Assembly: GCA_903858115.1 (NCBI GenBank)
Contig: CAIOHR010000007.1
Span: forward strand, 1 to 64,000
Reading direction: 5' to 3'
Length of the DNA: 64,000 nt
From: an uncultured Pirellula sp.
Lineage (GTDB): Bacteria; Planctomycetota; Planctomycetia; Pirellulales; Pirellulaceae
This document shows, one piece after another, positions 42,867-59,976 of the stretch. The notes beneath the pieces are model-generated. The model searched no databases. It had not been told where the DNA came from and was given only the letters and a program-made list of their open reading frames with translations. How positions within the stretch are numbered: the first letter of the stretch is position 1; each line of letters begins with the position of its first letter. The position numbers were made by a program, and so were the translations under genes.

Positions 42867-44390
42867 ATGATTCGCCTCCTCTCCTTTGCCTTCATACTCG
42901 TATCCGCCCATGCAATCCACGCGGCAGAAAAGCCCAACATCATCGTGATCATGGCGGATGATCTCGGATATGGTGATGTATCGTGTTACGGTGCGACAGC
43001 TATCCAGACGCCGGCGATCGATCGACTCGCCAACGAAGGAGTTCGGTTCACGAGCGGTTATTGTTCTGCGTCGACTTGCACGCCCACTCGATTCTCTCTG
43101 TTGACTGGTACTTACGCCTTTCGCCAAAAAGGGACCGGTATAGCCCCCCCAAACGGCCCTGCCATTATTCGCCCCGGAACAGACACGCTTCCATCGATTC
43201 TAAAGCGAGCTGGGTATGCAACGGCGGTCATTGGCAAGTGGCATTTGGGGCTTGGTGACACGGCTCCCGATTGGAATGGAGAGTTGAAACCAGGGCCACT
43301 CGAGATCGGATTCGATCATTGTTTTTTATTGCCTACTACCAACGACCGCGTCCCTCAAGTTTACGTCGAAGATCGACGTGTCAAGAATCTTGATCCCAAA
43401 GATCCGTTATGGGTCGGGAGCGACAAACCAGCAGAAGACCATCCGACTGGTATCACCCATCGAAGTATATTGAAGATGGACTGGTCCCATGGACACAATC
43501 AAACCATACACAATGGAATCAGCCGGATCGGATTTTACACCGGTGGAAACAAAGCTAGATTTCGTGACGAAGACGTGGCCGACCAATGGGTTAGCGAATC
43601 CAATCGTTGGATCGAAGCCAACCAAGATCGACCTTTCTTCCTTTTCTTCGCCTCGCAAGACATCCATGTTCCTCGTATCGCGCATGAACGATTTCAAGGT
43701 AAATCCAAACTTGGCCCTCGCGGTGATTGCATCCTGCAACTCGACTGGTGTGTGGGTGAGTTGACGAAGACCATCGAACGGCTCGGACTCTCAAAAAACA
43801 CGCTGATCGTTTTTTGTTCGGACAATGGACCAGTCCTCGACGACGGCTACAAAGATGATGCCGTGGAAAAGCTCGGAAACCACGAACCCGCTGGCCCTTT
43901 TCGTGGAGGCAAGTACAGCGTCTGGGAAGGAGGAACGCGAACCCCTTTCATCACGCGGTGGTTGGGACAAATTTCACCGAGCGTTTCGAAGGAAGTTGTT
44001 TGTACGATCGACTTAGCAGCCAGTTTCGCATCCCTCTCAGGGCAAACACTACCGCACGAGTCTTGCCTTGATAGTTTAAATGCAATGGATGCGTTGATGG
44101 GTAAACCGGGAACGACTGGGCGCGATCATTTGATACAACAAGATAACGGCAGTGGAAACTTTGGCTTGCGCTCGGGGGAATGGAAGCTCGTGCGTCTCAA
44201 ACAGCGAGGAAAGTCACAAGCGACGGTGAGCCTTAAGGAGCAAGCCATGCCCACGGGGCAACACAGCTTGTATCGCCTCACCGACGATCCAGGCGAGCAA
44301 AACGATTTATCTGCCGAAAATCCAGAGATCGTCCAACGATTGACCAAAATGCTAGACAAAATGATCAATGACGGCAGAAGCCGCCAGTAG
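42867..44390 (+). CDS. Secreted sulfatase, second of four
   Basis: 507 residues, clean signal peptide (cut after A-I-H-A-A). Metal-site D-D-L-G-Y-G-D follows directly; formylglycine motif C71-T-P-T-R with L-L-T-G after it. Other blocks are G-K-W-H-L-G-L-G, C-S-D-N-G-P-V-L and a C-terminal E-W-K-L-V-R-L-K. Contains an extended loop (about residues 85-100, I-A-P-P-N-G-P-A) not seen in the first copy. 477 and 489 residue paralogs exist in this window. The substrate is unknown. Confidence 0.93.
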   Translation: MIRLLSFAFILVSAHAIHAAEKPNIIVIMADDLGYGDVSCYGATAIQTPAIDRLANEGVRFTSGYCSASTCTPTRFSLLTGTYAFRQKGTGIAPPNGPAIIRPGTDTLPSILKRAGYATAVIGKWHLGLGDTAPDWNGELKPGPLEIGFDHCFLLPTTNDRVPQVYVEDRRVKNLDPKDPLWVGSDKPAEDHPTGITHRSILKMDWSHGHNQTIHNGISRIGFYTGGNKARFRDEDVADQWVSESNRWIEANQDRPFFLFFASQDIHVPRIAHERFQGKSKLGPRGDCILQLDWCVGELTKTIERLGLSKNTLIVFCSDNGPVLDDGYKDDAVEKLGNHEPAGPFRGGKYSVWEGGTRTPFITRWLGQISPSVSKEVVCTIDLAASFASLSGQTLPHESCLDSLNAMDALMGKPGTTGRDHLIQQDNGSGNFGLRSGEWKLVRLKQRGKSQATVSLKEQAMPTGQHSLYRLTDDPGEQNDLSAENPEIVQRLTKMLDKMINDGRSRQ

Positions 44391-44531
44391 TCAGCGAGCG
44401 TTAGATCTGTGTCAAAGGTATGCGTGTATGTGTATCCACAGTGTATGTTGTATGCACCGGTTCGAACGTTTCTTCGTTTAACAGTCAGCCACAGGCGTAC
44501 TCGTTGTCCGAACTTCGCGTACGCCTTCGGC

Positions 44532-44561
44532 TAACGGTTAAACGCGATTAACGGTTAAACG
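44532..44561. repeat. Direct repeat of a 13-bp palindromic element
   Basis: TAACGGTTAAACG at 44532-44544 and 44549-44561 (17-base period). The core TTAACGGTTAA-like sequence is itself partly palindromic. It lies in the 197-base gap between the two sulfatase genes, where no gene is seen; possible operator or dispersed repeat. Confidence 0.6.
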
Positions 44562-44635
44562 AGTGTTGCCCGAGTCCCGCTACATCAGTGATCATGATTG
44601 CAAAAATGCTATTCAAACAAGATGAAATCCAAACC

Positions 44636-46057
44636 ATGATTTATTATCCCATGCGTCTCTTCCTAATCTGTCTGTTGTTCGTCCTAGGCCTAGGAACGAA
44701 TCGATCGAGTGCGGCATCCTCGAGCGAGCGGTACCCGAACATTGTGATTATCTTTTGCGATGATCTTGGTTGGGGGGACTTGGGTTGTTTTGGTAACCCA
44801 ACGATTCGTACTCCGAATCTAGATCGAATGGCCGCCGAAGGGCAACGATGGACTCAGTTTTACGTCGCAGCTCCCGTCTGTACCCCGAGCCGAGCCGCAT
44901 TGATGACGGGGCGATTGCCAATTCGAAACGGAATGACCGGCAAGCGGGCCGTGTTGTTTCCAAATTCTGGAGGTGGATTGCGTCCTGAAGAAATCACACT
45001 GGCAGAGCTTCTCAAACAAAAGAACTACGCCACAGGAATGTTCGGCAAATGGCACCTCGGACATTTGCCAAAGTACCTGCCTACATCGCAGGGGTTTGAT
45101 ACCTATTTTGGTATCCCGTATTCGAACGACATGGATAAAGTTGGAGGACCTGGCTATCGGGCAGAAGCGGCGAAGGACCCGGACTATTACCCCGACAGCG
45201 CGCACTTCAATGTACCGCTGATGCGTGGCACGGAGATCATCGAACGCCCCACAGACCAGAATACCATAACCAGACGTTACACCGAAGAAGCGATTCAATT
45301 CATTCGCGATAAAAAAGACCAACCCTTTTTTGTGTACCTACCGCACTCGATGCCGCATATTCCTTTGTTTGCCTCGGAGGCCTTTCGAGGCAAGTCGAAA
45401 CGCGGCTTGTACGGGGACGTGATCGAAGAGATCGACGCTAATGTAGGCAAGGTTCTCGATACATTGCGAGAACTGAAAATCGAAGAGAACACGCTGGTCA
45501 TGTTCAGTTCGGACAATGGCCCTTGGTTGAGCTTTGAAACACATGGCGGTTCCGCTGGATCATTGCGAGCAGGCAAGGGCACCACCTTTGAAGGAGGGCA
45601 ACGCGTTCCGACGATCTTCTGGTGGCCTGGGAAAGTCAAGCCGGGCATCGTTCATGAACTCGGTTCGACGCTCGACATGATGGCAACATTGGCCTCCTTG
45701 ACCGGTAGCAATACACCGACCGATCGCAAGCTCGATTCGTACAACTTAGCACCGACACTGTTAGGGAACGGGGGCAGCCCGCGCAAAGAGATGTTTTACT
45801 GGACCAATGCGGAGCTCCATGCTGTTCGATCGGGTCCGTGGAAGCTCCACGTGAAGATGCGAGAGCCGATCAACTATGGGAAAGAAGTAGTGCTATCCAA
45901 ACCCGAGCTATATCACGTTGAACGCGATATCTCGGAATCGTATGATGTGGCAGATCAGCATCCTGAAATTGTGGAACGACTCTTGGCTATGATGCAAGCA
46001 CATCAATCCGACATCGAACCCCATCAAGATATGTTGGCAATCCCATTAACCGAATAG
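44636..46057 (+). CDS. Secreted sulfatase, third of four
   Basis: 473 residues from ATG 44636; other in-frame starts at 44588 (GTG), 44594 and 44651 are possible. The signal sequence L-F-L-I-C-L-L-F-V-L-G-L-G is plain. Metal-site D-D-L-G-W-G-D and G-C-F-G-N, then formylglycine motif C-T-P-S-R-A-A-L-M-T-G, G-K-W-H-L-G-H and S-S-D-N-G-P-W. More like an arylsulfatase A type by the W-G-D-L-G motif. Same strand as the sulfatase before it, so the two may be read together. Confidence 0.92.
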   Translation: MIYYPMRLFLICLLFVLGLGTNRSSAASSSERYPNIVIIFCDDLGWGDLGCFGNPTIRTPNLDRMAAEGQRWTQFYVAAPVCTPSRAALMTGRLPIRNGMTGKRAVLFPNSGGGLRPEEITLAELLKQKNYATGMFGKWHLGHLPKYLPTSQGFDTYFGIPYSNDMDKVGGPGYRAEAAKDPDYYPDSAHFNVPLMRGTEIIERPTDQNTITRRYTEEAIQFIRDKKDQPFFVYLPHSMPHIPLFASEAFRGKSKRGLYGDVIEEIDANVGKVLDTLRELKIEENTLVMFSSDNGPWLSFETHGGSAGSLRAGKGTTFEGGQRVPTIFWWPGKVKPGIVHELGSTLDMMATLASLTGSNTPTDRKLDSYNLAPTLLGNGGSPRKEMFYWTNAELHAVRSGPWKLHVKMREPINYGKEVVLSKPELYHVERDISESYDVADQHPEIVERLLAMMQAHQSDIEPHQDMLAIPLTE

Positions 46058-48620: not shown

Positions 48621-50261
48621 TCATCGTCGAAATCGATTCCAGTCGATAGATAGCTTGCGCATTTTGGCTCGAAGTGTATGCGGATTGATCCCTAGCAAAT
48701 GCGCAGCTCCTCGCCCACCTTCGATTTGCCCACTCGTGGCCGCCAAAGCGCGTTCGATGTGTCGCACCATAGCCGAATCGAGCGAATCCAGCGGTGCTTC
48801 ATCGTTGGGTGGCAATTGCGTATGGCTCTTGGAACTCTGGCGAACGGGTGATTCCGGTATGACTTCATAGAATGTAGGTTCATCTGTCTCGGGAAACGAA
48901 GCTGTTGGTTGAACAAAAGCATTCCCTAACGACATAGCAACATCTAATCGAGTGCCACCCCCTAAGATAACCGCTCGATCGATAACCGCTTGAAGCTCTC
49001 GAATGTTTCCCGGCCAACGATAGTCCATCAGTTGTTTGATGTCAGCCAGCGAAGGTTCTACGTAAGGCAATCCGAATCTGTCTGCAGCTCGCTTGGCAAA
49101 ATGCCTAGCCAACGCGGGGATATCTTCGACTCTCTCACGCAATCCGGGCAACAAGATCGGAAACATATTGATTCGATACCAGAGATCTTCTCGAAACGAT
49201 CTGCGATGCACCATGGCCGATAGATCGCGATGGGTTGCCGCGATGATTCGCACGTCCACGTGAATATGGTTCTGACCACCGACTCGTTCTATTTGGTGAT
49301 CCTGCAAGACTCGCAACAATCGTACTTGGGCGGCTAAAGGGAGTTCTCCAATCTCGTCGAGAAACAATGTTCCTCCATCGGCGCGTTCAAACCAACCTTT
49401 GCGTTGATCCGACGCGCCAGTAAAACTGCCACGCTCGTGACCAAACAATTGCGAGTCAATCAACTCCGTTGGAATGGCACCGCAGTTGACCCGAATAAAA
49501 GGCCGCGAGTTTCTGGGTGAGCGTCCGTGAATCGCTCGTGCGACGACTTCTTTTCCCGTTCCTGTTTCTCCCAAAATCAAGACCGGCATATCCGAGGGAG
49601 CCACGATTCGAACACGCTCCATGACAGCGCGAAGGCCTGTTTCGGAGCCAACGACTGCTTCGCGGCCCTCATCAGACTGTTCAGTAGGGACGTCGCTCGA
49701 ATTGGAATCGGAATCGCCGTTCGATACTTCCGGCCAACGATGTCGAACCGATCGCTCCAAAACCAACCAGAGGATCGGCCCCCATCGTTCGAGCCATGGA
49801 TAGTGTTCTTCGCGCAGGGTTCGGCCTGATTCGATCTCAAAGATGCCTGCGCCGACAACAACATCCCGTTCGATACATTGGTCACGATTCGGCCGAAGCG
49901 GTACAGCAAAGGTCTCGTTCGTGATGGAATCTGGTGTCAACGAATGCAGTTTGCCCGTTCGCTTCATGCCTGTTTGACGAAGAAGTGCTCCGGTCCTGCA
50001 CCATTCATTCACGTTTGTCCATTTCGCTTCGGAGCAAACGACCGAAGCTTGCTCTGCTCCCATTGCAGCCTGCCCCCCTGCTACCTCTGCAACTCGGAAT
50101 GTCTTCGTTTTGGAATCGACAAACTGCAACACGATCGACTCGATCGGGACGATTCTTTGCAATATTTCCAGTTGCCCGGTCAATGGGTTGCCGGCGGCGC
50201 AAGGCTCCACCCCCTTTTCCCATGCGTTCAACAGGACCATCAATTGTTCCAAATCGTTCAA
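48621..50261 (-). CDS. Sigma-54-dependent transcriptional activator
   Basis: 546 residues: N-terminal GAF-like sensor (~1-175), AAA+ central domain (~200-445) and Fis-type HTH at the end (518-546, [15 protein letters not shown]). Walker A G-E-T-G-T-G-K-E at 231-238; G-S-F-T-G-A at 278-283 (sigma-54 contact loop, normally G-A-F-T-G-A, here Ser for Ala); Walker [12 protein letters not shown] at 296-306. The gene faces away from sbp across a 248-base gap holding a -24/-12 promoter, so it is the likely regulator of the sulfate importer. Confidence 0.93.
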
Positions 50262-50322
50262 AATCTAGTCTCCAAAGCCCATCAGGCGATCCAGCAAATA
50301 AAACGGCCGCCTGTTTAATATA

Positions 50323-50338
50323 ACGGTCATTCCGTGAC
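50323..50338. promoter_or_regulatory. Candidate activator-binding dyad upstream of sbp
   Basis: GTCA (50326-50329), five bases, TGAC (50335-50338), overlapping ACGG (50323-50326) / CCGT (50332-50335). It lies roughly 110 bases before the expected start point, a usual distance for a sigma-54 activator site. A second dyad AATGC-AG-GCATT is at 50353-50364 and CCAA-A-TTGG at 50375-50383. Assignment to the activator at 48621 is inference. Confidence 0.4.
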
Positions 50339-50419
50339 ATTTGCTGGTTAAAAATGCAGGCATTCGTGGTTTTGCCAAATTGGGAAGACTTTGCAGGTCC
50401 GATTGTAGGGGATTTGAAT

Positions 50420-50435
50420 TGGCCCGCAGGTTGCG
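50420..50435 (+). promoter_or_regulatory. Sigma-54 (-24/-12) promoter of the sulfate importer
   Basis: TGGCCCG-CAGG-TTGCG at 50420-50435 matches the sigma-54 consensus TGGCACG-N4-TTGC(A/T) with correct spacing: the second G of GG at 50422 and the C of GC at 50434 are 12 bases apart. It reads toward sbp, whose ATG (50510) lies 75 bases downstream. Confidence 0.72.
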
Positions 50436-50509
50436 TTACCTGACATCTACGCGAAGTCAAATCGCTTTTGTTTCTTATTCAGCACTCTCACACCGTCAGT
50501 CACTCCACC

Positions 50510-51610
50510 ATGAATGCCGTTCGAAGCAACGCATTTTTCATACCGCTTTTTCTTGGATGCATACTGGGATGCGACAGCGGGAACAGCTCCTCCAGTTCAA
50601 ACGCTTCGGGTGGCAAAACCATCAAGCTACTGAATGTCTCTTACGATCCGACACGGGAGTTGTACCTCGATTTCAATGAGTCCTTCGCAAAGCACTGGAA
50701 GGAAAAAACCGGCGACACGGTCGAAATCGATCAATCCCACGGCGGGTCTGGAAAACAAGCGCGCGCCGTGAATGAAGGGCTCAAAGCGGACATTGTATCG
50801 TTGGCTTTGGCGGGTGATATTGCCACGATTGCCAAATCAGGACTGATCGATGGGGATTGGCAATCGAAGTTTCCGAATAACAGTTCTCCCTACACTTCGA
50901 CGATCGTGTTCTTGGTCCGCAAAGGAAACCCTAAGAACATCAAGGACTGGGACGACTTGGTTCGCGATGGAGTCGAGGTCATTACGCCAAACCCGAAAAC
51001 CGGTGGTGGAGCGCGTTGGAACTATCTTGCGGCATGGGGGTATGCGCTCCATCGAGAGCTCGGAGTTTTTGCCGTGCTGAAAGATCCGTCTAAGAAAGCC
51101 GAGGTCGATGCAGCGGTTGAAAAAGCAAAAAAGTACATGGGGGATTTGTATCGCCATGTACCTATCTTGGATGCCTCAGCGCGAGCGGCCACCAACACCT
51201 TCATTCAGCGCTCGATCGGCGATGTGCTGTTGGCTTGGGAAAACGAAGCGTTCTTGGCGTTCAAGGAGCTCGGAACCGATCAGGTGGAAATGGTGGTCCC
51301 GCCAATGAGTATTTTGGCCGAACCGCCAGTCGCCGTGGTGTCGAAGAACGCGCAAGCCAATGGGACGACCGAGGTGGCTGCTGCGTACCTTGAATACCTT
51401 TACACACCGGAGGGGCAGCGAATTGCAGCCAAGCACTACTACCGGCCTCGTGCGAGCGAATTGCTAACGGAGGAACAAAAAGCCGTGTTTGGCAAGCTGA
51501 CTCTTTTTCAATTGACCGACGTGCTATCGGGATGGGACGAGGCGCACGAGGTTCACTTTAAGGATCGCACTGGGGTGTTTGATCAGATCTATCAATCGGA
51601 CAAAAGATAA
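50510..51610 (+). CDS. sbp: Sulfate ABC transporter substrate-binding lipoprotein
   Basis: 366 residues from ATG 50510 (frame open to 50468). Lipobox I-L-G-C21, so lipid-anchored. Family blocks: [37 protein letters not shown] and [15 protein letters not shown]. These match Sbp/CysP, which bind sulfate or thiosulfate; the sequence does not decide which. First gene of the operon. Confidence 0.93.
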
Positions 51611-51656: not shown

Positions 51657-52493
51657 ATGAACATGCATAGCCGTTCCAAAGCCATGTTGCCCGGATTCGG
51701 TATAACGATGGGTTATACGTTGCTGTACCTCTCTGTGATTGTGCTGATCCCACTCGCGGCGCTATTTCTCAAAGCGGCGACCATGGATTGGAACGATTTC
51801 TACAACACCATCACATCTCCTCGTGTGCTGGCTGCGTATCGATTGACCTTTGGCGCATCCTTCATTGCAGCGATGATCAACACGATCTTTGGAGCGTTGG
51901 TGGCATGGGCAATTGTTCGGTATCGTTTTACCGGTCGACAATTGTTGGACGCGATCATCGATCTGCCTTTTGCTATGCCAACTGCAGTGTCGGGTATCGC
52001 CCTGATGGCCATCTACGGTCCAACGGGCTTGATTGGGAAACACTTGGTTCCCTTCGGAATCAAGACCGCGATTTCACCGTTAGGGATTGTGATCGCGTTG
52101 ACCTTTATCGGATTACCCTTTGTCGTAAGGACTCTCCAGCCAGCCCTCGAGGAACTCGATGGCGAAGCAGAACAAGCGGCGGCCAGTTTGGGCGCGAGTC
52201 GTTGGCAGACCTTTTGGCGCATTATTGTTCCATCGCTTTTGCCATCTCTGCTCACCGGTTTTACCCTTGCTTTTGCGAGGGCGCTCGGTGAATACGGCAG
52301 CGTCATTTTCATCGCAGGGAACATTCCGATGAAGACCGAGATCGCATCGTTGTTGATCATCAGCAAGCTCGACGACAATGATGTTCCAGGAGCCGCCGCG
52401 ATCGCGGTCGTGATGTTGGTTGCGACACTTTTGATCCTATTGTTGGTACAAGGAATTCAATCGTGGTCGCAGCGAATTACAGGGAGGAATTGA
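51657..52493 (+). CDS. cysT: Sulfate ABC transporter permease
   Basis: 278 residues, six predicted helices. The A-A-S-L-G-A-S-R-W-Q-T-F-W-R-I-I-V-P-S-L-L-P-S coupling loop (EAA motif) in the C-terminal half contacts CysA. G-E-Y-G-S-V-I-F-I-A-G-N is the CysT/CysU signature. Follows sbp by 46 bases; cysW starts 3 bases after its stop. Confidence 0.93.
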   Translation: MNMHSRSKAMLPGFGITMGYTLLYLSVIVLIPLAALFLKAATMDWNDFYNTITSPRVLAAYRLTFGASFIAAMINTIFGALVAWAIVRYRFTGRQLLDAIIDLPFAMPTAVSGIALMAIYGPTGLIGKHLVPFGIKTAISPLGIVIALTFIGLPFVVRTLQPALEELDGEAEQAAASLGASRWQTFWRIIVPSLLPSLLTGFTLAFARALGEYGSVIFIAGNIPMKTEIASLLIISKLDDNDVPGAAAIAVVMLVATLLILLLVQGIQSWSQRITGRN

Positions 52494-52496
52494 CCA

Positions 52497-53378
52497 ATGA
52501 CGCAAAACGCAAATCGCACCCGTCGTGAAATGAATGATCCCTGGTGGGTCCGTTCGATCGTCATCTTCCTTTCGATCGGCTTCGTTGCATTGATGCTCGT
52601 ATTACCACTGGGCGTCATCTTCTTCGAAGCCTTTCGCAAAGGAGCCAAACTCTATTTTGCTGCATTTCAAGATCGCAACTCCATCCGCGCCATCACTATG
52701 ACGTGCTTGGCTGCTGGCATCGCGGTTCCATTGAATTTGGTTTTTGGAATCGCTGCTTCATGGGCGATTGCAAAATTCAGCTTTCGAGGCAAGGGTTTGT
52801 TAATCGCACTGATCGATTTGCCGTTTGCGATCTCACCCGTGATATCTGGGTTGGTCTACATCCTTGTTTTCGGCATGCAAGGATGGTTGGGCAAATGGCT
52901 GGAGGGTTATGGAATTCAAGTCATTTTTGCAGTGCCAGGCATTGTGCTGGCCACGATCTTTGTCACTTTTCCATTTGTCGCTCGCGAATTGATCCCGCTG
53001 ATGCAAGAACAAGGAAGCGAGGAGGAATGGGCAGCGATTTCCTTAGGTGCAAATGGATGGCAGACCTTTTGGCGAGTTACGTTGCCCAACATCAAATGGG
53101 GTGTTTTGTACGGCGTGCTGCTTTGCAATGCGCGGGCGATGGGTGAGTTCGGAGCAGTCTCGGTTGTGTCTTCGAATATTCGCGGAGGAACCAACACATT
53201 GCCGCTTCATATCGACGCCCTTTACAACGACTACAACTCTGTGGCAGCCTTTGCGATGGCATCGATCTTAGCGTTGCTCGGCATCGTCACATTGGTTGGG
53301 AAAAGTTTGCTGGAAAGAAAACTTGAACAGGAATCGAGTCTCTCGCTTGAGTCGACAACGACAGAGGTATCCAAATGA
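52497..53378 (+). CDS. cysW: Sulfate ABC transporter permease
   Basis: 293 residues, partner of the previous permease. EAA loop: [23 protein letters not shown], followed by [14 protein letters not shown], a CysW hallmark. ATGA overlap with cysA. A second start at residue 12 is possible. Order sbp-cysT-cysW-cysA is the standard sulfate operon order. Confidence 0.93.
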
Positions 53379-54451
53379 GCATTGAAATTCAAAACATTAG
53401 CAAGAGCTTTGGCTCTTTCACGGCGTTGCAAGATATCTCCCTGAAGATAGAAAACGGCGAGCTCGTGTCGCTACTCGGTCCCTCGGGATCAGGAAAAACC
53501 ACTTTGTTGCGAGTCATCGCCGGGATGGAAGCGCCCGATCCAGCGCCGAACAGCCATGTCTATTTCTTTGGTGAGGATGTCGCCAACAAGCCTGTTGGAG
53601 ATCGCAAAGTCGGATTTGTATTTCAGCATTACGCTCTCTTCAAGCATATGAGTGTTTTCGAGAATATTGCATTCGGGCTGCGAGTGCGTCCACGTTCCCA
53701 GCGTCCATCGGAATCTGCGATTCGCGATAAAGTACATTCTCTATTGAACCTCATTCAACTAGAAGGTTTCGGAACACGCTTTCCAAAACAGCTTTCAGGC
53801 GGTCAACGGCAACGTGTTGCATTGGCTCGTGCATTAGCGATTGAGCCACAAGTTTTGTTGCTCGACGAACCGTTCGGAGCGTTGGACGCCAAGGTTCGAA
53901 AGGGATTGCGAGACTGGCTGCGAGGACTTCACGACGAATTAAACACGACAACCATTCTGGTCACACACGATCAAGAAGAAGCACTGGAGGTTTCCGATCG
54001 TGTGGTGGTGATGAATCAATCGAGAATCGAACAAGTGGGTGCACCTGCTGACGTTTTCCATCACCCAGCGTCCGAGTTTGTGATCGATTTCCTCGGGAAT
54101 GTCAACGTATTTCATGGTCGAGTCAATCAAGGGCAAGCGGTGTTGGACAACATTCGCGTGAATTTGTCCAACCCTGCCATACGAGATGAAGCACAAGCCA
54201 AAGTCTACGTTCGGCCTAGCGAAATGTCGATTGGTCACTCTCCAATTGACTCTTCCAGTATGCCCGCGCGCGTTGCTCGTATCAATCGAGCTGGTGTGGT
54301 TGCGAAGATCTCGCTGGAGTCAAAAAACAAAGAGGAAATCCGTGTCGATGTCAGCATGGAGCAACTTTTGGAACTCCAATTGCAACTAGGGGACGAGGTG
54401 TTTGTGCACCCAAACCATGCGCGCGTTTTTGTTCCTGACTACACCATTTGA
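53375..54451 (+). CDS. cysA: Sulfate ABC transporter ATP-binding protein
   Basis: 358 residues. Walker [10 protein letters not shown] (35-43), signature [10 protein letters not shown], Walker [13 protein letters not shown]-loop T-H-D-Q-E-E-A, and a C-terminal TOBE-type domain typical of CysA (residues ~240-358, with V-Y-V-R-P-S-E). ATPase that powers sulfate import. Confidence 0.95.
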
Positions 54452-58045: not shown

Positions 58046-59473
58046 TCAGTCTCGACGAGGCGCCTTGCCGTAGTATGGAAATTTATCCCATTCATCGTAG
58101 GTTGGATCGATTCGCGGGTCGTTTGTTTGCATCATCCAATTATCGACACGCTGCCGGCACTGTTGTAATGCGTCAGAATAGTCCGTTTTGTGAGCGACAT
58201 TGTACAGTTGATCCGGATCACTCTTTAGGTCATAAAGTTCCTCTGCAGGACGCTTCCCAAAGATGAGAGAAATTTTCTTAGCAAAAGCAGGATCGCCTTC
58301 GTGCGCGAGCAGAAAGTCCTTGACATGCGTTGTGTCCACATCGCCATAGGGTCGTCCGTGCAGGAACAGAACGTCAGGATCTCCAGCGGGCCAGCGGTCT
58401 GGGCGAAGATTGCGGAGATACAGGTATTCGCGAGTGCGCACGCCACGAATCGGGTAGCTCATGTTTTCCTTTCGGACATTGGCATGTCGCTCTCGCTCGA
58501 TAAAGACGGCGTCACGCTTAAATGAATCAGGCTTGCCAAGCATAAGATTCTTGATGCTGTGCATACTCATCAGAGGCGGCGGTATCAATCCAGCGAGTTC
58601 GAGGAACGTAGGACCTAGGTCGGCGACGTTAACGAAGTCGTCCACGATGCGACCCGCTTGAAGATTCTTGCCCCAACGGATCGCGAGCGGAACGCGTGAG
58701 CCGGCGTCGTAGCAGTTGGCCAGGCCACGCGGCAACTGCCAACCATTGTCGCTAGTGTAGATGACTACCGTGTTGTCGAGTTGACCTGCTTTCTCGAGCA
58801 CCGCGACGGCTTGAGCAGCTTCGTTGTCGAGCTTCATTACACCACCGTAGTAGTTCAACAAATCGTCACGAACTTCAGCACAATCGGGAAGTTCCGGTGG
58901 CACGTTGAGCTTGCCGATATCAAGCTTCTCTTTTGCATCCGCCAAATACGGTAGCTTGCCAGCTTTGGTTGCAGTGTCGGTGTTGCCAAGCCAGAACAAG
59001 AACGGCTTGGCCAAGTCATGTTTCGAATGGAACGCTTCGAAGCTCGCGAATTTCGCTCCGACGGGATTCTCAGTCCAGCCAGATGCCTCGTGATTTCCAG
59101 GCGCCCAAGCCTTTCCTGCATATCCGATTTCATAACCTGCATCGCGCAGTAAAGTCGTGACTACGGGCGTGTCCATCGGAAAGCCGCTCCACAAACTCGC
59201 GCGCTCGCCCAATTCATGCGCCGTTCTACCGGTGAGCAAACAGGAACGAGTCGGTGAACACGACGGAACGGGATTGAACGTGTGTGTAAAAAGCACTCCT
59301 TCACTCGCAATACGATCGAACACAGGTGTCTTCGCCATCGGATCACCCAGGATACCAGCGGTCGGATAACGCCAATTGTCCGCGAGGATAAAAAGGATGT
59401 TCGGACGCTCTGCTGCCTGTACCGTAGGTGCAGCGGCACATATGGCCAACAAGACGAATGAAAGATAATTCAT
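58046..59473 (-). CDS. Secreted sulfatase, fourth of four
   Basis: 475 residues from ATG 59473 (open frame to 59608). Signal peptide ends A-P-T-V-Q-A-A. The metal-binding start, usually D-D-x-x-x-x-D, is A-D32-N33-W-R-Y-P here, a noticeable change; formylglycine motif C72-S-P-T-R is intact. S-D-N-G-W, G-Y-A-G-K-A-W and E-L-Y-D-L-K-S-D-P-D-Q are present. Resembles the heparan-sulfatase/sulfamidase side of the family; the substrate is unknown. Divergent from the glycosidase-like gene. Confidence 0.9.
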   Translation of the reverse strand: MNYLSFVLLAICAAAPTVQAAERPNILFILADNWRYPTAGILGDPMAKTPVFDRIASEGVLFTHTFNPVPSCSPTRSCLLTGRTAHELGERASLWSGFPMDTPVVTTLLRDAGYEIGYAGKAWAPGNHEASGWTENPVGAKFASFEAFHSKHDLAKPFLFWLGNTDTATKAGKLPYLADAKEKLDIGKLNVPPELPDCAEVRDDLLNYYGGVMKLDNEAAQAVAVLEKAGQLDNTVVIYTSDNGWQLPRGLANCYDAGSRVPLAIRWGKNLQAGRIVDDFVNVADLGPTFLELAGLIPPPLMSMHSIKNLMLGKPDSFKRDAVFIERERHANVRKENMSYPIRGVRTREYLYLRNLRPDRWPAGDPDVLFLHGRPYGDVDTTHVKDFLLAHEGDPAFAKKISLIFGKRPAEELYDLKSDPDQLYNVAHKTDYSDALQQCRQRVDNWMMQTNDPRIDPTYDEWDKFPYYGKAPRRD

Positions 59474-59976
59474 AAACCGAAAAAGCTTTCCATTGAAAAT
59501 AGTAGGAGTAAGGCAAAGCCAATATCGTTTGGACGCGATCACCTCACCGGATGGTTTACGTTCAATGCCATTGAGCCTAGCAAACTTTGTGGCAGAGAAA
59601 AGCCCCACGGTGCTAAGTCGCGAACAACGCCTTATGGCTGTCTAATTCGCAGCCGCAGTTGTCGTCCAAAACCAAATGCTACCAGATTTAACCTGCATGA
59701 TACTCCATACTTCGTTAGTAACTTAGAGCGAGTCCCCTCAAGCCTGTCCAACAAAGAAACAGCCTGTCCAGCAAAGAAACATCTTCCCTGACTGTCGAGT
59801 AATCCGATTCACTGAAGCTGCATCGACTGCATCATTTCAACCGTCAACACGCTGGATTGCTCGCAATCGCATAGACCTTCTGAAGTCCCGTCCGGTGTGA
59901 TATGTTGAATGTACTGGTCGTCTTTTTACCTTCCCAACGCAATGATCGCTCAGCGATTTCAACGGCGGATTCAACT
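59474..59976. other. 503-base divergent promoter region with tandem 20-bp repeat
   Basis: Between the divergent sulfatase and glycosidase-like genes. AGCCTGTCCA[A/G]CAAAGAAAC occurs twice in direct tandem at 59741-59760 and 59761-59780. No RNA gene or ORF of interest was seen. Confidence 0.7.

Follow-up and report, generated by a model that had tools for sequence, protein, structure and literature searches.

A candidate sigma-54 switch with upstream palindromes at the sulfate importer operon of an uncultured Pirellula and its relatives

We identified three 16-bp palindromes of the pattern CCRKNAWATWTNMYGG between a sulfate ABC importer operon, sbp-cysT-cysW-cysA, and a divergently encoded sigma-54 activator gene in the genome of an uncultured Pirellula sp. 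We consider it highly likely, from sequence comparisons, that a dedicated sigma-54 switch, with the divergent activator acting on these three palindromes, drives sbp-cysTWA. Such a switch had been proposed in an earlier note on this DNA; its promoter element, palindrome array and activator are indeed seen again in relatives, both within the family and beyond it, in further families of the order.

The locus, its activator and its candidate operators

In the window (the whole stretch of DNA analysed, 64 kb), the importer operon lies on the forward strand and the activator gene on the reverse strand. Profile models bear out the gene assignments of the earlier note. The features are as follows.

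48621-50261, reverse strand: sigma-54 activator (enhancer-binding protein), 546 aa; Pfam PF00158 at 1.7e-71 and AAA_lid_14 at 6.5e-18, both above cut-off
50291-50306, no strand: predicted upstream activator site 1, CCAGCAAATAAAACGG; matrix score 18.2, 17.2 refitted
50311-50326, no strand: predicted upstream activator site 2, CTGTTTAATATAACGG; matrix score 16.1, 15.1 refitted
50326-50338, no strand: GTCA-N5-TGAC dyad; overlap of sites 2 and 3, unconserved
50332-50347, no strand: predicted upstream activator site 3, CCGTGACATTTGCTGG; matrix score 17.6, 17.8 refitted
50420-50435, forward strand: sigma-54 promoter element TGGCCCG-CAGG-TTGCG, TGGCCCGCAGGTTGCG; GG and GC at fixed spacing
50510-51610, forward strand: sbp, sulfate-binding protein, 366 aa; NCBIfam NF008022, 438.9 bits (cut-off 288)
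51657-52493, forward strand: cysT permease; TIGR02139, 381.7 bits (cut-off 246.1)
52497-53378, forward strand: cysW permease; TIGR02140, 394.1 bits (cut-off 329.1)
53375-54451, forward strand: cysA ATPase; TIGR00968, 373 bits (cut-off 342.75), and a CysA_C_terminal match

All four importer proteins scored best with sulfate models, and the four subunits exceed sulfate-family cut-offs, in the case of CysA that of a subfamily model (its best-scoring model, the equivalog NF008105, gave 422.5 bits, below its cut-off of 502). Sbp narrowly clears the cut-off of the CysP thiosulfate model too (310.7 against 308 bits). On either side of the locus lie genes that we take to be sulfatase-like (42867-46057 and 58046-59608 of the window), and a matrix scan of the 64 kb placed no operator site near them. 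The genome contains one PF04552 match (207.5 bits), corresponding to rpoN, and the window has no Rfam match.

The activator combines a GAF-like N-terminus (residues 1 to about 180), an AAA+ sigma-54 interaction domain (204-369) and a Fis-type helix-turn-helix near 501-537. Its loop reads GSFTGA, and either GSFTGA or GAFTGA is present in all 18 aligned rows. The HTH_8 model gave 21.7 bits for the window protein, just under the cut-off of 22, and matched 18 of 18 rows at a lax E ≤ 1. At E ≤ 1 the Pfam GAF models matched up to 5 of the 18 rows, the window protein remaining unmatched; the structural model of its N-terminal 200 residues (pLDDT 60.8) had GAF domains as top matches (best E 1.4e-4, TM by query about 0.4-0.5). 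The best NCBIfam models all scored below their cut-offs: NifA 336.3 (cut-off 528.85), NorR 324.9 (476) and NtrC 317.4 (558.6). In a phylogenetic tree, a long branch with 100/100 support separates 30 sbp-linked activators, two gammaproteobacterial ones included, from 8 unlinked ones (five of the six in the own genome and three others). The tree contains several long branches of unsure placement.

The palindromes became apparent when upstream regions were compared side by side, as repeats related to CCGTNATATATNACGG. In the window, the step from site 1 to site 2 is 20 bp and that from site 2 to site 3 is 21 bp, and the first base of site 3 lies 88 bp ahead of the T of the -24 element. Sites 1 and 2 start upstream of the interval considered in the earlier note (50323-50510). 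When the matrix was refitted on 23 loci and 48 sites, leaving out the window and its three nearest relatives, the window sites ranked 1-3 in the 64 kb (17.8, 17.2 and 15.1), and the next place scored 9.6. The same three places led in an earlier left-out test, which reused sites chosen with the full matrix.

The dyad that the earlier note had taken for the operator, GTCA-N5-TGAC, does not stand: it straddles two real sites and is best seen as their chance overlap. Of the 27 family upstream regions, each 750 bases long, only that of the window contains it, and it is altered in all three nearest relatives. Its single occurrence in the window is about what 64000/4^8 predicts.

The -24/-12 element is present with the GG-to-GC spacing that had been claimed for it. 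It is on the same strand as sbp, 90 bases ahead of the ATG at 50510, and the start point expected from it is at about 50446. Taken alone, this element is unremarkable and constitutes weak evidence; the window holds 21 matches at two mismatches or fewer, for 11.45 expected and a maximum of 20 in 100 shuffles. There was no sigma-70 type match at 50200-50560, which we counted in favour of the sigma-54 switch. Comparison with relatives places the element in a conserved regulatory unit.

Conservation in the family, in the order and beyond

We searched 199 genomes of the family and found an Sbp relative at E ≤ 1e-20 in 27, among them the own genome with two copies. This gave 28 stretches and, with the window, 29 regions. 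The activator was found in 23 of the 29, and 20 have it upstream in divergent orientation; L061 and L062 have it at a distance of about 2.2 kb, and L065 has a fragment of it. The matrix was trained on the 27 family loci that remained without L063 and L065 (L064 and L065 are fragmentary). It detected 58 sites in 20,250 upstream bases, at 25 of the 27 loci, against 4 sites in 105,805 bases from sbp onward, counts that are partly circular because the seed for the fit had been picked by eye in an alignment of these loci. We defined an array as two sites within 62 bp. Seven of the 27 training loci have no array, and L061 and L062 have no site at all, which counts against the switch. Adjacent site pairs (n = 58) are mostly separated by 20-23 bp (37 pairs) or 41-43 bp (11 pairs), the others by 17-19 bp (7) or 53-62 bp (3). 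The two main classes (48 of 58 pairs) correspond to two and four helical turns, which puts the sites in helical phase.

Arrays are also frequent in the same order outside the family. With the family-trained matrix, 20 of 21 loci had one no more than 1 kb ahead of sbp (shuffles: mean 0.01, maximum 1); the 21 loci were the best-scoring among the Sbp matches listed, and 17 come from one family. The activator was present in 13 of the 21 within the 1.5 kb upstream examined, divergent each time. We then considered 20 more diverged loci of the order, chosen from the remainder of 120 matching genomes, and found arrays within 1 kb in only 4 (shuffles: mean 0.02), which weighs against the switch. For the array count, L225 was dropped (no upstream sequence), L214 had a short upstream region, and the array of L212, at -1266, was scored as a miss. 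The stretches of the diverged loci span 3.4-3.6 kb, and 8 of the 20 include the activator. Up to 2.8 kb upstream, arrays were present in 7 of these 8 loci and in none of the 12 without the activator.

Some loci depart from this association, and we counted them against the switch. Arrays without an activator in the stretch occur in L051, L053 and L057 and in 8 of the 21 out-of-family loci (1.5 kb examined), while L206 encodes an activator of the clade and has no recognisable array. The activator genes of L231 and L243 are co-directional, with the array immediately before them and the candidate sbp promoter some 1.5 kb away; this arrangement has no simple explanation and was also counted against.

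Outside the order, none of 26 loci had an array within 1 kb, and one had a single site. Among the 80 best named Sbp loci, from many phyla, arrays were found within 700 bases in four, all planctomycete and seemingly family loci already counted. A pattern scan of eight relatives included G097, where 43 sites were found and the sole pair within 60 bp is the one at sbp.

The promoter survey covered 52 loci (27 of the family, 21 of the same order and 4 of the 20 diverged ones), 44 of them with an array. An element was counted if it kept both GG and GC, agreed with the consensus at 9 or more of 12 letters and lay 30-260 bp past the array. Such an element was present in 38 of the 44 array-bearing loci (shuffles: mean 1.9, maximum 8; antisense of the same windows: 8). 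The other six (L041, L053, L056, L183, L186 and L197) count against the switch. In 11 of the 38 loci, among them the window, the last site has its first base 88 bp before the T of the -24 element. This distance is 86-89 bp in 16 loci, several of which are close relatives, and 57 to 252 bp in the remainder.

The own genome encodes a second divergent activator-sbp-cysTWA unit (L043; contig C343, 105-6556), in which two palindromes are spaced by 42 bp and the sigma-54 match is weak. A palindrome search allowing one mismatch returned 31 forward matches in this genome, versus 9 for the reversed control pattern. We scored 28 of the 31 (L066-L080 and L161-L180; those on C306, C332 and C350 were left out) and found no wider regulon among them. 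The zero-mismatch sites at C193:25,565 and C432:170,103 are both solitary, the latter preceding an elongation-factor-G-like gene. The only close pair among the scored matches, besides the two sbp units, is at C7:69,431-69,488, with sites 42 bp apart. This pair (L161 1932-2164; about 69.4-69.7 kb) is followed by a weak -24/-12 element, TGGCACCAAAAACGCA, ahead of a DUF1254/DUF1214 gene. The pair is not clearly conserved at four same-genus homologues, with none in three of them and two weak sites (9.7 and 9.2), 29 bp apart, in L260. There was no array at the own-genome cysDNC, second PAPS_reduct gene or sulfite-reductase-like gene, and at most one weak site (9.6-9.7), which we counted against the switch. 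For example, cysD-cysNC (L252 4021-9167, on C432) has one weak operator-like site (9.7) and no array; the genes ahead of it are presumably rpsB and tsf.

The arrangement is also found in more distant genomes. In another planctomycete, from outside the order (L253), the activator, three sites and a sigma-54 element are followed by a cysK-like gene, sbp, cysT, cysW and cysA. The cysK-like gene is the first of the operon, and Pfam assigns it only to the PALP family. In two Phycisphaerales the activator and two sites 42-43 bp apart are followed by a cysteine-dioxygenase-like gene, a gene for an FAD protein, and sbp.

L093, 3446-5349: Phycisphaerales operon, cysteine-dioxygenase-like and FAD protein genes between promoter and sbp
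L095, 3526-5486: Phycisphaerales operon, same gene order

The Pfam CDO_I score is above the cut-off in L095 and just below it in L093. L095 has a -24/-12 match, and L093 has a variant, read by eye, with GT at -12.

In two gammaproteobacterial records, one from Pseudoalteromonas piscicida (L265) and one from another genome (L266/L267), the activator is divergent from an operon of a porin-like gene, sbp, cysT, cysW and cysA (L265 2074-5990; L267 7212-14001); we take the first gene to encode an outer-membrane porin-like protein. The candidate operator of L265, TCGTTAAATATAACGA, has a low matrix score (9.8), and a second imperfect palindrome was seen by eye; the promoter of this record, TGGTCAGTTCTATGCA, also read by eye, has 8 of 12 consensus letters. 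The low score and this promoter were both counted against. The candidate operator of L266, TCGTTAAATAAAACGA, scores 7.9, under the limit, and was counted against as well; the promoter, TGGCACGAATATGGCA, has 11 of 12 letters. Both records keep the operator core CGTTAAATAWAACG and differ in the outer bases, and the helix-turn-helix motif NPHTLR reads NPNTLR. The unit seems rare in gammaproteobacteria: when the top three candidates per genome were scored, at least 1 of 395 genomes passed the chosen limit. The earlier idea of a dedicated sigma-54 switch is retained, and the unit is not restricted to this lineage; it also occurs in the Phycisphaerales, in L253 and in the two gammaproteobacterial records.

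Proposed mechanism and competing explanations

We propose that sigma-54 RNA polymerase would wait at 50420-50435 and that the activator would bind the three palindromes, which are in phase and have their centres about 147, 127 and 106 bp ahead of the expected start point. The bound activator would then oligomerise, loop the DNA and open the promoter through ATP hydrolysis. Its GAF-like domain may gate activation by a small molecule, presumably a sulfur metabolite, so that the switch would be on when sulfate or cysteine is short. We infer sulfur limitation as the natural signal because the target is sbp-cysTWA and because of the cysK-like gene in L253. The sample names of some of the nearest named relatives point to fresh water (LacPavin, pond, Loclat), and habitats of this kind may often be sulfate-poor. 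Site 1 lies 30 bp from the first start codon of the activator, and autoregulation is therefore plausible.

This architecture could be right and the signal another. The importer would then serve or answer a different oxyanion or sulfur compound, for instance thiosulfate, sulfonate or sulfate-ester products, and the system would work by substrate induction. The narrow pass of Sbp over the CysP model (310.7 vs 308) is in line with this, as are the operon partners, which vary with the lineage (Phycisphaerales have cysteine-dioxygenase-like and FAD proteins, gammaproteobacteria a porin-like protein), and the presumed sulfatase-like genes in the window. Nevertheless, sulfate models are best for all four importer proteins, the leading cysK-like gene of L253, a PALP family member, points to cysteine synthesis, and the sulfatase-like genes have no site near them. 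We regard another signal as a minority possibility.

Alternatively, the palindromes might be operators of an unrelated regulator, e.g. a repressor, with the neighbouring activator acting elsewhere. The pairing of palindromes and activator is itself read from sequence, and the stretch of some loci includes an array but no activator. Yet in the diverged loci of the order arrays go with the activator (7 of 8 with, 0 of 12 without), and the array stays beside the activator when the latter heads longer operons (L253, L093 and L095). Related palindromes occupy the same place in gammaproteobacteria, and an enhancer would fit the recurrent spacing from the -24 element, which is 86-89 bp in 16 of 38 loci and exactly 88 bp in 11 of these. 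An unrelated regulator is consequently improbable in our view, and the palindromes are very probably used by the adjoining activator. Even less credible is chance, i.e. a degenerate -24/-12 element and AT-rich repeats ahead of a constitutive operon: a match such as that of the window is not rare by itself, but the conservation of arrays and promoter outside the family and the left-out ranking contradict this explanation, to which we give almost no weight.

Relation to known control of sulfur acquisition

Sulfate uptake is controlled by CysB, acting on cysPTWA and sbp, in proteobacteria, and by CymR and the S-box in firmicutes. These systems concern the same kind of transporter or pathway and presumably the same purpose, but they use sigma-70 type promoters or a riboswitch, neither of which was matched here (50200-50560 for the promoters; Rfam, in the window, for the riboswitch). 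Activators of the NtrC, NorR and NifA type bind upstream sites and open -24/-12 promoters by means of their ATPase. The system predicted here resembles them in domain plan, in-phase upstream palindromes and ATPase-driven opening, and they provide its best NCBIfam models. It differs in that these scores are below the cut-offs and in its target, and to our knowledge the operator CCRKNAWATWTNMYGG is not one of NtrC, NorR or NifA.

The closest known system is SfnR, whose targets are genes for dimethyl sulfone and related organosulfur compounds. Both would be sigma-54 activators of sulfur-acquisition genes, but SfnR acts on organosulfur genes whereas the target here is a sulfate ABC importer, a distinction drawn from descriptions. 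In the part of the source available, SfnR of Pseudomonas is a sigma-54 activator of sulfur-acquisition genes tied to sulfate starvation (PMC8234197), and a title in its reference list indicates that SfnR is itself CysB-regulated. In Paraburkholderia phymatum nodules, the expression of sulfate ABC genes is lower in an rpoN mutant (PMC5979394). RpoN thus affects the same kind of genes there, but in the accessible part of that text this concerns symbiosis expression, and neither a dedicated activator nor a -24/-12 element is named. Within the portions of texts returned by our literature search, we found neither a sulfate ABC importer with a dedicated sigma-54 activator nor an account of the control of sulfate uptake in Planctomycetota; Studholme and Dixon 2004, on the activators of Pirellula strain 1, may discuss an orthologue.

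Against the literature available to us in part, the machinery is standard, and the target, the operator and the activator clade look new. We give about even chances to a broader reading, in which these loci represent an undescribed class of control of sulfur assimilation. Under this reading a clade of GAF-AAA-Fis sigma-54 activators would have a 16-bp operator peculiar to it, would accompany sbp-cysTWA throughout Planctomycetota and in some Gammaproteobacteria, and would sense a sulfur metabolite directly through its GAF-like domain. The arrangement differs from textbook control of sulfate uptake and suggests that one transporter may be placed under different regulatory machinery in different bacteria. 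The conserved operator is a concrete candidate binding site, which would tie an orphan activator clade to a nutrient and may enable the prediction of regulons in many genomes.
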